The notes under the pieces were generated by a model. It was not told where the DNA came from and did not search any database. It saw nothing but the letters and a program-made list of their open reading frames with translations. The translations under genes and the position numbers were made by a program. A stretch of 64,000 nucleotides of DNA. It comes from Cobetia sp. L2A1 (GTDB lineage Bacteria > Pseudomonadota > Gammaproteobacteria > Pseudomonadales > Halomonadaceae). Numbering within the stretch: the first letter of the stretch is position 1; each line of letters opens with the position of its first letter. Location of the stretch: positions 62,001 to 126,000 of the forward strand of contig NZ_CP047025.1 of NCBI RefSeq assembly GCF_009796845.1. The letters are read 5' to 3'. Below, in pieces: positions 28,004-49,585 of this stretch.

Positions 28004-28852
28004 ATGACAGACAGTTCTGCCCAGACACCGCGTGACGCCACCCAGAATCAGGCCATGACTCAGGTGCCGGGGGATGCTCCAATGATTATCGCTGGTCGCG
28101 AATTTTCCTCGCGCCTGCTGGTCGGTACCGGCAAGTACAAGGACATGGATGAGACGCGTTCGGCCATCGAGACGTCTGGCGCGGAAATCGTCACCTTTGC
28201 CGTGCGTCGTACCAATCTGGGACAGAACAGCGATGAGCCGAACCTGCTCGACGTGCTGTCTCCCAGCCGTTACACCTTCCTGCCGAATACCGCAGGCTGC
28301 TTCAACGCACGTGACGCGGTACGCACCTGCAAGCTGGCCCGCGAACTCCTCGATGGCCACAATCTGGTCAAGCTGGAAGTGTTGGGCGACCAGGACACGC
28401 TGTATCCCAACGTCGTCGAGACGCTCAAGGCTGCCGAACAGCTGGTCGCCGATGGCTTCGACGTGATGGTGTATACCTCTGATGACCCCATCGTCGCTCG
28501 TCAACTCGAAGAGATCGGCTGCTGCGCCATCATGCCGCTGGGCTCGCTGATCGGCTCTGGCCTTGGCATCCTCAACCCGCACACCCTATCGCTGATCATC
28601 GAGCGCGCCAATGTGCCGGTGCTGGTCGATGCTGGTCTGGGGACGGCATCCGAAGCGGCCTTCGCGATGGAGCTGGGCTGTGATGGCGTGCTGATGAACA
28701 GTGCCATTGCTCACGCGCGCCATCCGCTGATGATGGCTGATGCGATGCGTCAGGCGGTCATCTCGGGTCGCGGCGCCTTCCTCGCCGGCCGTATGCCGAC
28801 TCGCTTGACCGCTCGTGCTTCTTCACCGGGTGCTGGACTGATCACTGGCTGA
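28004..28852 (+). CDS. thiG: Thiazole synthase ThiG
   Basis: Forms the thiazole phosphate of thiamine from 1-deoxy-xylulose phosphate, dehydroglycine and ThiS thiocarboxylate. The 282 residues include an unusually long polar N-terminal extension of about 25 residues before the core ([19 protein letters not shown]). The Schiff-base lysine is in LVKLEVLGD, and phosphate-binding elements are [11 protein letters not shown] and [23 protein letters not shown] precedes ATG 28004; an alternative ATG at 28082 would remove the extension. Confidence 0.95.
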
Positions 28853-28926: not shown

Positions 28927-29724
28927 ATGACTGACGAGACCACCAAGCCGCAGGACGCTACGTCCGACACCACTCATGCTGACACTGCGACTCAAGATGC
29001 CGCTGCGCAAGGCACGCCTTCCGTGGCCGATGAAGCCGTAGCCCGTAAGCGTGGTATCAAGAGTTACGTGATTCGCGGCGGCCGTATGACCCAGGCTCAG
29101 ACGCGCGGTCTCGACGAGATATTCCCGCGTCTCGGCCTGCGTCACGAGCAAGGCGAACTGGATCTCGAGGCCCTCTTCGGCCGTCGTGCGCCGCTGGTCA
29201 TCGAAGTTGGTTTCGGTATGGGCAAGTCGCTGTGCGAGCAGGCACAAGCCAATCCGGAGACGGACTTCATCGGTATCGAAGTTCATGCGCCGGGTGTCGG
29301 CAAGTTGCTGGATGAAGCAGATAAGCAAGGCCTGACCAACTTGCGTGTCTATCGTCACGATGCACTGGAAGTGCTGGCCGATTGTGTGCCGGCGGGTAGC
29401 GCAGATACCTTCCAGCTGTTCTTCCCTGATCCGTGGCCGAAGAAGAAGCACCACAAGCGTCGCATCGTTCAGCCGGCTTTCGTTGAGTTGGTGCGTCGTG
29501 TGCTCAAGCCGGAAGGTCACTTCCACATGGCCACCGACTGGGCCAACTACGCCGAAGCGATGGCAGAGGAAATGGCCGAGGCCCCGGGCTTTACCAACAC
29601 GGCACCGGCAGAAAGCGCGCCCTATGTGCCGCGTCCTGACTTCCGCCCGCTGACCAAGTTCGAGCAGCGCGGTGAGCGTCTCGGCCATGGTGTCTGGGAC
29701 CTGATCTTCGTCAAGCAGGACTGA
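28927..29724 (+). CDS. trmB: tRNA (guanine-N7-)-methyltransferase
   Basis: S-adenosylmethionine enzyme that makes m7G46 in tRNA, 265 residues. The first 40 residues are a Thr/Ala/Asp-rich extension without a fold. The core is complete: RTQAQTRGL-like MTQAQTRGLDEIFPRLGL, VIEVGFGMGKSLCEQA (cofactor loop), FIGIEVHAPGVGKLL, LFFPDPWPKKKHHKRRIVQ (substrate signature) and FHMATDWANYAEAM. It follows thiG by 74 bases in the same direction, so it may be cotranscribed. Confidence 0.95.
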   Translation: MTDETTKPQDATSDTTHADTATQDAAAQGTPSVADEAVARKRGIKSYVIRGGRMTQAQTRGLDEIFPRLGLRHEQGELDLEALFGRRAPLVIEVGFGMGKSLCEQAQANPETDFIGIEVHAPGVGKLLDEADKQGLTNLRVYRHDALEVLADCVPAGSADTFQLFFPDPWPKKKHHKRRIVQPAFVELVRRVLKPEGHFHMATDWANYAEAMAEEMAEAPGFTNTAPAESAPYVPRPDFRPLTKFEQRGERLGHGVWDLIFVKQD

Positions 29725-29793: not shown

Positions 29794-29872
29794 TTGCGTC
29801 TGAGGACTTGCTGCGTCCTTTTGCATTACCTGACCTTGCTCCTTCCTTTCCTCGTCCCGAGAGTTGCTGACC

Positions 29873-30790
29873 ATGACGACGCCTATTGCCGATTCGGCTG
29901 ATCTCCCGACCATGACACCGCTGACGGCACTGATCTGCCCGCTGGATGCCCAGCCACTGACGCGTGATGGCCAGAGCTGGTGTTGTGTCGACGGGCATCG
30001 TTTCGATATCGCCCGTCAGGGGCATGTCAACCTGTTGCCGGTGCAGCGCAAGCGCAGCCTTGATCCCGGTGACAGCAAGGCGATGGTCGTGGCGCGGCAG
30101 CGGCTGTTCGCTCTAGGCGGCTACCTGCCGCTGGCCGAAGCGTTGGCTCGTCGCGTGGTGGAAAGCGTGGACACACCACTGGGCGGTGCGTCCTTGGGAG
30201 TATTGGATGCCGGCTGTGGTGAAGGCTATTACTTGCGTCAACTCGCCCATGCGGCGGGGCAAGAAGGCATCATATTGGAAGCGGCAGGTCTGGATATCTC
30301 CAAGCATGCGGTGCTGGCAGCCGCCAGGCAGTCCCGTGATGCGGCCTGGCTGGTCGGTACCAATGCGGCACTGCCGCTGGAAGATGATTGCGTCGACGTC
30401 GTGATCTGCGCCTTCGGCTTTCCCGTCTGGCAGGAATTCGCCCGTGTGCTGAAGCCCGGTGGCCGCGTCGTGCTGCTGGAAGCGGGAGCTGAGCATCTGC
30501 TGGCACTGCGCAAGATTCTCTACCGTGAGCTGAAACCTGCGCGTGGCGAGGCGGGGTTGAGTGCTGCCGAGGCCGCTGGCTTTACGAGTGAGAGCGACGT
30601 CGAACATCTGTACGCAGGACTGTCGTTGGCCAGCAATGAGCAGATTCGGGATCTGCTGACCATGACACCACATCTCTATCGTGCAGAGCGCGAGGGTCTG
30701 GCGCGTGCCGAAGCACTGTCTGAGCTGGAGGTCGAATTGCACGCTGAGCTGCGGGTATTCACATCGGCTATTGCACAAGATAAAACTTAA
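29873..30790 (+). CDS. rlmA: 23S rRNA (guanine-N1-)-methyltransferase RlmA-like
   Basis: Methylates G745-type guanine in 23S rRNA, 305 residues. The N-terminal zinc domain reads ICPLDAQPLTRDGQSWCCVDGHRFD, then HVNLLPVQRKRSLDPGDSKAM, which is diagnostic for RlmA. The Rossmann cofactor loop is LDAGCGEGYYLRQL. In the zinc site the usual second Cys of CPLC is Asp (CPLD), so metal binding may be altered or use Asp. ATG 29873 is chosen over TTG 29864. A Fur-box transcription unit begins just downstream. Confidence 0.88.
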   Translation: MTTPIADSADLPTMTPLTALICPLDAQPLTRDGQSWCCVDGHRFDIARQGHVNLLPVQRKRSLDPGDSKAMVVARQRLFALGGYLPLAEALARRVVESVDTPLGGASLGVLDAGCGEGYYLRQLAHAAGQEGIILEAAGLDISKHAVLAAARQSRDAAWLVGTNAALPLEDDCVDVVICAFGFPVWQEFARVLKPGGRVVLLEAGAEHLLALRKILYRELKPARGEAGLSAAEAAGFTSESDVEHLYAGLSLASNEQIRDLLTMTPHLYRAEREGLARAEALSELEVELHAELRVFTSAIAQDKT

Positions 30791-30812: not shown

Positions 30813-30841
30813 TTGCAAAAGCAAATGAGAATGATTATCTT
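30813..30841 (+). promoter_or_regulatory. Promoter overlapped by a Fur box
   Basis: TTGCAA (30813-30818), 17-base spacer and TATCTT (30836-30841) make a sigma-70-type promoter. GCAAATGAGAATGATTATC at 30821-30839 matches the 19-base Fur consensus at 15 positions and covers the spacer and -10, which would block transcription when iron is plentiful. Confidence 0.65.
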
Positions 30842-30847
30842 GTCTGT

Positions 30848-30976
30848 GCGGTGTCCGGGCAGACATCGCAGGGCGAAAGCCCATCCGTAGTGGCGGAGTC
30901 AGGCCCCCGCTACGGTGTTTCTCCTCATCAAGCTAGTCACGGTCTTGGGCATCCTCATCTTGGGGATGCCCTTTTT
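30848..30976 (+). ncRNA. Candidate Fur-regulated small RNA
   Basis: A transcript of about 129 bases is predicted from the Fur-box promoter to a terminator, with no open frame or ribosome site inside. It holds GGGC-GAAA-GCCC (30871-30882, GNRA loop), a 9-bp stem CCGTAGTGG / CCGCTACGG (30885-30893 with 30907-30915), an apparently unpaired CU-rich stretch TTTCTCCTCATC (30918-30929) and the terminator. The CU stretch is complementary to Shine-Dalgarno sequences, as in RyhB/PrrF-like iron-sparing RNAs. I do not recognise it as a known RNA family. The exact 5' end is inferred. Confidence 0.6.
30947..30976 (+). terminator. Rho-independent terminator of the small RNA
   Basis: GGGCATCC (30947-30954) pairs with GGATGCCC (30964-30971), then TTTTT (30972-30976). 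Confidence 0.85.
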
Positions 30977-31001
30977 CTTGTGCCCAGTTCAATGAATGGC
31001 G

Positions 31002-31931
31002 TCAGAGGGTCAGCCAGAAAGGCAGTGTCAGCATCGCCAGTAGCGTTTGGGCAGTGATCAGCGCGGCCATCAGCTCGGCATTGCCGCCCAGCTGGCGGGC
31101 GAGGATATAGGCGGACGTCGCGGTGGGCAGGGCGGCAAACAGGATGGCGACATCCCGCGCGATGCCCGTCAGTCCCACCAGCTGACATGACGCGACGACC
31201 AGAGCTGGCATTGCCATCAGCTTGAGCAGGCTTGCCAACCACGCCACGCTGCCGCTGGTAATCAACACGCGAGGGCGAAGGGCGACCCCCACTGCGACCA
31301 GTCCCAGTGGCAGCGCGGCTCGTCCCAGCAGACTGATGGCATCGCCACTCCAGCCAGGAAGGCCGATTCCGCTCAGATTGAGTGCGGTACCTGCCAGACA
31401 CGCGAGCACCAGAGGGTTGCGAGTCAGCGCCTTGAGTGAGCGCAGCAGACCGCCTTCTCCCAGAGTGCCTGACCCGATGAAGGCCATCACGCACAGTAGA
31501 TTGGCTGCAGGGACCATCAATGCCAGCGCGACGGCGGCGACCGTTGCACCAGCTGCGCCGTGCAGTGCGGCGGCACCGGCGACACCGACATAGCTGTTGA
31601 AGCGAATGCTGCCCTGAAACAGCGAGGTGAAGGAAGCTGCATCACCCAGGTGACGGTTCAGCCAGTTGGGTGCATGCCGCCAGCATAGCCATAGCACCAC
31701 GGAGAATATCAGCATGGCGCCCAGCATCACGCTGGCTAGCGACATGACCGGTACGCTTGCCATGTCAGCACGTGCCAGCGTAGACACCAGCATGGCGGGG
31801 AACAGGATGTAGTAGATCATCCGCTCCATCTCATTCCAGAAGCCTTCACCCGGGAAGCGCCTCCAGCCCAGCAGAGCCCCGACAACAATCAAGAGGAAGA
31901 GGGGGCCGAGCGCCTGCTGTACACTTGCCAT
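31002..31931 (-). CDS. AEC-family (auxin efflux carrier type) transporter
   Basis: Inner-membrane carrier of 309 residues with about ten helices in two inverted halves. The start MASVQQALGPLFLLIVVGALLGWR and the segment IYYILFPAMLVSTLA are typical of the AEC family, whose bacterial members move malonate, malate or other organic anions. The second half shows ALPLGLVAVGVALRP and FAALPTATSAYILARQLGG, the conserved final signature. GAGGAA precedes ATG 31931; the frame extends 15 codons further. Substrate unknown. Confidence 0.88.
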   Translation of the reverse strand: MASVQQALGPLFLLIVVGALLGWRRFPGEGFWNEMERMIYYILFPAMLVSTLARADMASVPVMSLASVMLGAMLIFSVVLWLCWRHAPNWLNRHLGDAASFTSLFQGSIRFNSYVGVAGAAALHGAAGATVAAVALALMVPAANLLCVMAFIGSGTLGEGGLLRSLKALTRNPLVLACLAGTALNLSGIGLPGWSGDAISLLGRAALPLGLVAVGVALRPRVLITSGSVAWLASLLKLMAMPALVVASCQLVGLTGIARDVAILFAALPTATSAYILARQLGGNAELMAALITAQTLLAMLTLPFWLTL

Positions 31932-32127
31932 TCTGATTCCTCGTCTGGAGGTAGGATAAGACGTGCAGGATGCCAACCATCAGCCTGATAAGCTTGCCAT
32001 GAGACACATATCGCCGCATTCATTCATGTGTCGTATTGGCATGTCGCCGTGTGCTCAGTGATGCCAGTACTCAGCGACGATCTCTTTTTCTCTTCCGGCC
32101 ATGCGCCGGATTGTCATCGGAATTGCC

Positions 32128-40199: not shown

Positions 40200-40216
40200 C
40201 TGTGACTTCATCCATC
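40185..40216 (+). repeat. 16-bp tandem duplication at the yqaA start
   Basis: TGTGACTTCATCCATC occurs twice without a gap (40185-40200 and 40201-40216). It duplicates the start codon region of the minus-strand gene; since 16 is not a multiple of 3, the upstream copy of that start codon is out of frame. Confidence 0.85.
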
Positions 40217-49016: not shown

Positions 49017-49585
49017 TACACCAGCTCCTCATCGTGATCGGGGGTGTCTTCGCTCGCATGCGGTGATGGCAGGCGGCCACACAGGAACAGCAGATGGCGG
49101 CCAGCCTCAGCCACGCCCTGTAGCAGCATCAGCACGGCAATGGCAGGAAGCAGTGTCTTCAGCAGATAGACGCCCGGTAGGCCGCCAGACTCTGGCGAGG
49201 ATTCGTGAATTCGCCAGGAATCGCCCACGTAGCCGAAGCTCGTGAGGAAGATGAATATCATTACCGGAAACAGCAGGAAGAGCGTGCCGCCGAGATCGAC
49301 CAGCGACTTTCCACGGTGTGACATGCGCTGATAAAAGATATCGACCCGCACATGATTGTCATTCTTGAGGGTATAGCTGGCGGCAAGCAGGAAGACGGCC
49401 GCGTGCATATACATCACGGATTCCTGCATCTGGATGCTGTTGACGTTGAAGGCATAGCGCAGCATCACGATAGCGAATTCGACCAGCATCATGATAACGA
49501 CCAGCCAGGATACACAACGTCCCAAGCCTTCGGTCATGCGGTCGAGCCCTGTGAGCCAGCCGGGGGTGGAGGCAGTGGCAGACAT
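49016..49585 (-). CDS. TRAP transporter small permease (second system)
   Basis: Small membrane subunit of 189 residues. Helices: CVSWLVVIMMLVEFAIVMLRY, YMHAAVFLLAASYTL, LGGTLFLLFPVMIFIFLTSFGYV and LKTLLPAIAVLMLLQGVAE. The NVNSIQMQESVMYMHA segment and KNDNHVRVDIFYQRMS are typical of the small subunits paired with TakP receptors. First gene of a small permease, large permease, receptor operon; a C-terminal acidic tail ends EELV. Confidence 0.9.
   Translation of the reverse strand: MSATASTPGWLTGLDRMTEGLGRCVSWLVVIMMLVEFAIVMLRYAFNVNSIQMQESVMYMHAAVFLLAASYTLKNDNHVRVDIFYQRMSHRGKSLVDLGGTLFLLFPVMIFIFLTSFGYVGDSWRIHESSPESGGLPGVYLLKTLLPAIAVLMLLQGVAEAGRHLLFLCGRLPSPHASEDTPDHDEELV

Follow-up and report, generated by a model that had tools for sequence, protein, structure and literature searches.

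A predicted PrrF-type small RNA under a Fur box in Cobetia sp. L2A1, with relatives in nearly all Halomonadaceae genomes searched

The 64,000-nucleotide stretch of the Cobetia sp. L2A1 genome analysed here (contig NZ_CP047025.1; hereafter the window) carries on its plus strand thiG (28004-28852), a tRNA methyltransferase gene (28927-29724) that its Pfam family suggests to be trmB, and rlmA (29864-30790), a 23S rRNA methyltransferase gene recognised by the Pfam family Zn_ribbon_RlmA. A convergent AEC-type transporter gene follows on the minus strand (31002-31976, start codon uncertain; PF03547), and Pfam and synteny mark it, thiG and trmB as conserved neighbours. The feature described in this study lies between the convergent rlmA and transporter genes, so that its promoter serves no other recognisable gene.

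On the plus strand, a -35 element TTGCAA (30813-30818) and a -10 element TATCTT (30836-30841) can be read 17 bases apart, and a terminator scan places an intrinsic terminator at 30947-30976, in which 11 pairs (30947-30971) precede TTTTT. The promoter agrees with the consensus at only 8 of 12 positions and was therefore not listed by a scan of the window set at 9 of 12; TTGACG or a similar sequence occupies the -35 position in many relatives. The spacer and the -10 element are covered by a plus-strand Fur box, GCAAATGAGAATGATTATC (30821-30839), with 15 of 19 positions matching the 19-base Fur consensus. First-order Markov shuffles predict 0.13 such sites per 64 kb, and the window holds two that score at least 15/19; the other (49247-49265) lies inside apparent coding sequence and is probably a chance match. 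The initial annotation had read the same 15-of-19 box over spacer and -10, a recognisable promoter and a terminator about 130 bases on, and all three are confirmed. The box is kept at 14 or 15 of 19 at this first copy in all six Cobetia genomes, and the best upstream Fur score is at least 12/19 in 44 of 44 distinct core-bearing halomonad copies and in 92 of 92 distinct upstream stretches of named loci, a level reached by 2.6% of 3000 random windows.

With transcription taken to start at 30848, as the position of the -10 element suggests, the locus would encode an RNA of about 129 nt (30848-30976, plus strand, ends predicted), which its fold, Rfam and a halomonad covariance model all point to as a small RNA of the PrrF type. 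The RNA folds at -58.9 kcal/mol (z -4.6), equalled by none of 200 shuffles. The predicted structure comprises hairpin 1 of 8 bp (30848-30869), a GNRA hairpin GGGC-GAAA-GCCC (30871-30882), hairpin 2 with a 9-bp stem inside it (30885-30915), and an unpaired, CU-rich stretch, predicted to bind targets, that runs to the terminator (30916-30946). This is the arrangement proposed at the outset, with a GNRA hairpin and a 9-bp stem around a free CU-rich stretch. Among 34 aligned halomonad RNAs, the GNRA hairpin (loop GAAA or GCAA) is found in Cobetia first copies only.

The stems homologous to hairpins 1 and 2 covary in other halomonads. Covariation was assessed in 23 of the 34 aligned RNAs, leaving out the window's own sequence; seven Cobetia rows (the second copy among them) and four rows with insertions (the first copies in L008 and L010, L014 and L028) had been dropped. 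Both sides have changed in 5 of 7 pairs of hairpin 1, 4 of 11 pairs of hairpin 2 and 13 of 25 pairs of the whole alignment, a total that none of 500 shuffles reaches, and 94.9% of cells pair, against 34-49% in slid controls. From the first alignment of the halomonad RNAs, RNAalifold recovered hairpin 2 alone; hairpin 1 was probably missed because the Cobetia insertion had misaligned it.

These data bear on the reading of the locus as belonging to the leader or trailer of an mRNA, or as a small protein gene. One plus-strand frame of at least 40 codons overlaps the RNA (GTG 30851-31057, 68 codons), and in each of the six Cobetia genomes it stays open across the RNA, with 83 to 200 codons in the other five. 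Yet its GTG is not preceded by a visible ribosome site, in keeping with the initial annotation, which had claimed that no open frame with such a site was present. The frame reads through the terminator, and past that point it ends in the six genomes at different places, after 68 to 200 codons, in unrelated sequence. As far as the sequence tells, a frame is present and nothing marks it as a gene. With its own promoter and terminator between convergent genes, and with stems that covary, the locus is extremely unlikely to be of this kind.

The homology of the RNA is apparent in its unpaired region, where a core of 24 nt, TCTCCTCATCAAGCTAGTCACGGT (30920-30943, plus strand), fits the PrrF core TCTCCTCATCARGCTARTCACGGT at 24 of 24 positions. 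The same core is found at 24/24 in genomes of f3 (Pseudomonadaceae), f183, f188 and f215. Across the full length of the model, the top match of the locus in Rfam is RF00444 (PrrF), at 44.5 bits (E 1.1e-6), and scores in relatives rise to 75.1 bits in another halomonad genus. The curated cut-off of RF00444, a rule of the database and not a biological trait, stands at 90 bits, and a scan of the window at Rfam curated cut-offs reported nothing. Since the RF00444 model includes the promoter, the transcribed part was also scored by itself; PrrF remains the top family, at 23.1 bits (E 0.033), and the argument for homology must therefore rest on more than the RF00444 score. A covariance model built from the 34 halomonad RNAs, without the promoter, finds the PrrF of Stutzerimonas at 47.6 bits (E 7.4e-10), an RNA that RF00444 scores at 127.5 bits. 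No RyhB model is among the nine Rfam matches up to E 10.

The initial annotation had seen in the locus the logic of RyhB and PrrF, which the Fur box, the promoter, the terminator and the free CU-rich stretch support, and had added that the sequence resembles neither. The latter was mistaken, given the 24/24 core and an RF00444 match from end to end. Several traits by which a PrrF RNA is known recur here: a Fur box overlapping its own promoter (30821-30839), a non-coding RNA of 110-130 nt with an intrinsic terminator (ends predicted), a conserved unpaired core before that terminator, and predicted complementarity to the start regions of sodB, sdh and aconitase genes. By Rfam's rule the RNA does not belong to RF00444; sequence comparison places it as a PrrF homologue beyond the present boundary of that family.

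Where the initial annotation had proposed a covariance search in the Halomonadaceae, with lack of conservation as grounds for abandoning its reading, the locus proved to be conserved. Blastn matches come from 131 of the family's 275 genomes, and the halomonad model finds matches in 270 of the 275, in 252 of 254 good-quality genomes and in 23 of 24 genera. Applied to an even sample of the class, the same model matches 6 of 369 genomes, namely three of the family itself, Stutzerimonas, and two weak cases without the core. RF00444 matches 10 of these 369 genomes, one above cut-off, and 55 of 322 genomes in a sample of the order, 13 above cut-off and 42 below. All 13 belong to f3, taken as Pseudomonadaceae, and some of the families below the cut-off carry the core, exactly or in part; the 90-bit cut-off thus excludes every non-f3 genome of the order sample, though several have the exact core. 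Weak matches outside the order lack the core and were rejected as PrrF. A scan of named genomes for the CAAG form of the core returned 82 stretches, of which the 80 listed are mostly from halomonads, together with Oceanospirillum, an Oceanospirillaceae bacterium and Stutzerimonas. In 61 of the 80 named loci, thiG, trmB or the AEC gene lies nearby; the 19 without these neighbours include loci of Oceanospirillum, Larsenimonas and Stutzerimonas and second Cobetia copies. None of the genes neighbouring the RNA in the window was found at the Pseudomonadaceae PrrF loci that were read.

The limits of the core can be seen in g7 and g23, the largest two genera of the family, from which 20 high-scoring loci, 10 of each, were read (L312-L331). 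The full core is absent from all 20, with a best match of 14-16 of 24; the 5' half is altered and still CU-rich (examples are TTTCTCCCTCTCATTGCTAGTCACGGTCT, TTTCTCCTCCTCATTGCTAGTCACGGTCT and TTTCTCCCTCTCATT), and all of them retain the 3' half GCTAGTCACGG unchanged. The Fur score is at least 12 in 18 of the 19 usable loci and 11 in the remaining one, L326 being unusable since its anchor falls at the edge of the stretch. Genome G887 of family f217 has five PrrF-like copies in tandem (L104:1018-2160) with the core variant CTCTCTCATCAAGCTAATCACGGT.

These comparisons allow us to weigh an independent origin, in which a Fur-regulated small RNA would have come to resemble PrrF by convergence on the same targets. 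The hairpin and terminator sequences do differ from those of Pseudomonas PrrF, the RF00444 score falls below the Rfam cut-off, and g7 and g23 have an altered 5' half of the core. Convergence is nonetheless highly unlikely: the 24-nt core is exact and occupies the same place between hairpin 2 and terminator, the RNA aligns with the PrrF model from end to end, the halomonad and Rfam models match in both directions, and RNAs with an exact or nearly exact core occur in other families of the order.

Cobetia carries additional copies. A second one, with an intact core, lies ahead of corA, between that gene and a 202-codon frame without a Pfam match (G000:C1:560601-560725; L002:1405-1586, about 560545-560726). 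In tandem with it is a decayed third copy (G000:C1:560172-560301; L002:977-1161, about 560117-560301) with the core CTTCTCATCAGATCATTTACGG, which is also present in C. crustatorum (L199). The spacer Fur box is absent from the promoters of both; a palindromic Fur-like box is found instead just upstream of the -35 element, scoring 14/19 at the second copy and 12/19 at the third, and such a box also precedes the copies read in C. amphilecti and C. crustatorum. Within the same stretch, L002:1302-1325 may be the relic of a fourth core (GTCTCATCAGGCCAGTCACGACC, 18/24), without a clear promoter or hairpins.

Target prediction against the starts of iron-protein genes, which had been suggested as a check, places the expected genes high. 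Ungapped helices with at most one mismatch were scored between the core and start regions, with 63 window genes at machine-chosen starts as background. Cobetia sdhC pairs at -15.2 kcal/mol (1 of the 63 background genes as good or better), sodB at -13.1 (2 of 63), acnA at -11.0 (4 of 63) and acnB at -10.3 kcal/mol (5 of 63), and these four predicted sites are identical in all six Cobetia genomes. Pairing with leuC is intermediate, and the start regions of bfr and dps in Cobetia show no convincing core-pairing site. In this scoring, 36 of 42 target loci were used, two leuC and four dps loci being left out as their start pattern was not found. No shuffled core out of 300 matches the ranking for the four genes, and none out of 300 does so for all seven. 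Two window genes without an evident role in iron metabolism surpass sodB in pairing, and one of the two surpasses sdhC as well; both may be chance matches or unrecognised targets. A seed of the anti-Shine-Dalgarno type has weak matches at many start regions. The two strongest core matches among the 63 window genes are the minus-strand start regions at 40211 and 49016, presumably those of genes for a small membrane protein and a TRAP-transporter-like large subunit, respectively.

Other ways of searching were less informative. Gapped duplexfold energies at start regions were rejected, as long internal loops dominated and targets were poorly separated; with correct starts, Cobetia sodB, acnA and acnB stood at about 2-11% of the background, and several starts were misassigned. 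The seed complement AGCTTGATGAGGAGAAA, allowing up to three mismatches, occurs at 13 places in its own genome, two of which are the sRNA genes, versus three for a reversed control, and none of the remaining 11 resembles a known iron gene's ribosome site. A ferritin/Dps-like match running through one TGA was seen at G000:C1:261682-262101 (L279) and in none of the other five Cobetia genomes.

The anti-Shine-Dalgarno seed put forward by the initial annotation is well supported by comparative sequence, except that the seed looks bipartite: its first part, CUCCUCAUC, appears to face ribosome-binding regions, and its 3' half, GCUAGUCACGG, appears to face the start codon of sdhC, where the complementary stretch CCGUGAAUAGC spans the GTG. 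Among 27 PrrF-bearing genomes (25 of 30 searched, plus 2 of the 6 Cobetia), this sdhC site matches at 10 of 11 positions in 17 and at 9 or more in 23, whereas in the five genomes for which a filtered search found no PrrF it matches at 10/11 in none and at 9/11 in one. Shuffled sites reached 17 of 27 once in 1000 trials, and for every other 11-base window of the core at most three genomes reach the 10/11 level. The only mismatch of the site falls opposite the single position in the 3' half at which halomonads (G) and Pseudomonas (A) disagree. The retention of the 3' half in g7 and g23, despite a changed 5' half, fits a 3' half held by pairing with sdhC. Conservation of the amino acids at the start of SdhC, together with shared ancestry, could explain part of the match, and we regard the conservation of the site as a lead, not a proof. 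We see about an even chance that PrrF is an old small RNA of much of the order, not peculiar to Pseudomonas, with a two-part seed whose 5' half recognises ribosome-binding sites and may drift and whose GCUARUCACGG is fixed by pairing with the sdhC GTG; if so, succinate dehydrogenase would be the oldest PrrF target.

As for sdhC itself, the six Cobetia genomes hardly differ in its leader and around its GTG start, where no clear Shine-Dalgarno sequence is seen; the gene (G000:C1:573470-573823) and the second PrrF copy are about 13 kb apart. In genome G738, which has three tandem copies (L110) with an altered core, TTCTCTCATCAAAGCTAATCACGGTT or near it, the sdhC site matches at only 7 of 11 positions.

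A further reading, in which the RNA is a genuine homologue of PrrF but a shift in its control or its targets has left it with a main role other than iron sparing in Cobetia, is very unlikely. In its favour, the second Cobetia copy has lost the spacer box and keeps only the one upstream of the -35 element, and bfr and dps have no sites; it is countered by the box of 14 or 15 of 19 at the first copy and by the unchanged sdhC, sodB, acnA and acnB sites, each in all six Cobetia genomes.

The locus very probably encodes an orthologue of PrrF that is repressed by Fur and spares iron. A Fur-controlled RNA that acts in trans to spare iron, as proposed for the lineage, is likewise well supported by the comparisons, apart from the notion of an RNA unlike PrrF.

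From the promoter, Fur box, structure, homology, conservation and complementarity read in the sequence, we infer how such an RNA may act. When iron is plentiful, Fur loaded with iron would sit on the box over spacer and -10 and block transcription. Under iron shortage, the RNA of about 129 nt would be produced, and its hairpins and terminator would leave the 24-nt core exposed. Through its 5' half, UUCUCCUCAUC, this core would then pair at the ribosome-binding regions of sodB, acnA and acnB, and through its 3' half across the GTG start of sdhC; pairing would stop translation, probably with the help of Hfq and with decay of the mRNA, and the resulting repression would spare iron for essential uses.

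RyhB of enterobacteria, which is repressed by Fur and lowers iron-using enzymes, works in the way proposed for the Cobetia RNA, although no RyhB covariance match to the latter appears up to E 10. Much closer are PrrF1 and PrrF2 of Pseudomonas (RF00444), which likewise have a Fur box in the promoter and hairpins followed by a free core and a terminator. They are similar in length (116 and 114 nt in P. aeruginosa according to PMC2851614, versus about 129 nt), and are duplicated as the Cobetia RNA is, in tandem or dispersed, as described for Pseudomonas in PMC4211561. The two cores are identical except at two purine positions, with CAAGCUAG in Cobetia versus CAGGCUAA in most Pseudomonadaceae loci read; the Cobetia RNA differs in reaching half the curated score, in its stem sequences and in its extra GNRA hairpin. 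Both share sdh and the aconitases as targets, predicted ones in Cobetia: sdhCDAB, acnA and acnB are described as PrrF-regulated in P. aeruginosa (PMC2851614), sdhC is called an experimentally validated PrrF target there (PMC8534726), and sdhC and sodB are called confirmed targets of RyhB and PrrF (PMC7377471). Hfq is described as needed for PrrF action on antR in P. aeruginosa (PMC5501646). By its description as an iron-repressed homologue of PrrF that acts on sodB and FeSII, ArrF of Azotobacter vinelandii (PMC2851614) resembles the Cobetia RNA as well. BrrF of Burkholderia and NrrF of Neisseria are set beside it on descriptions of the same job and an overlapping target set (PMC7377471); BrrF is described in that source as unlike known Fur-regulated small RNAs and as lacking a Fur box of its own.

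The kind of RNA is ordinary, known from Pseudomonas and Azotobacter, and its place is new; a search of open-licence papers found no halomonad PrrF. Halomonads are salt-tolerant industrial chassis. In one of them, Halomonas bluephagenesis, PrrF1 of P. aeruginosa is described as an engineered silencing scaffold (PMC12164125, PMC13414033, PMC13101641). If such hosts carry a PrrF of their own with a shared core, cross-talk would have to be considered, and a native scaffold would be at hand. The halomonad RNAs give Rfam reason to widen RF00444, and, taken across the family, offer material for testing which targets hold the seed of a small RNA constant. For the organisms themselves, the Cobetia RNA suggests a way in which marine halomonads may spare iron.
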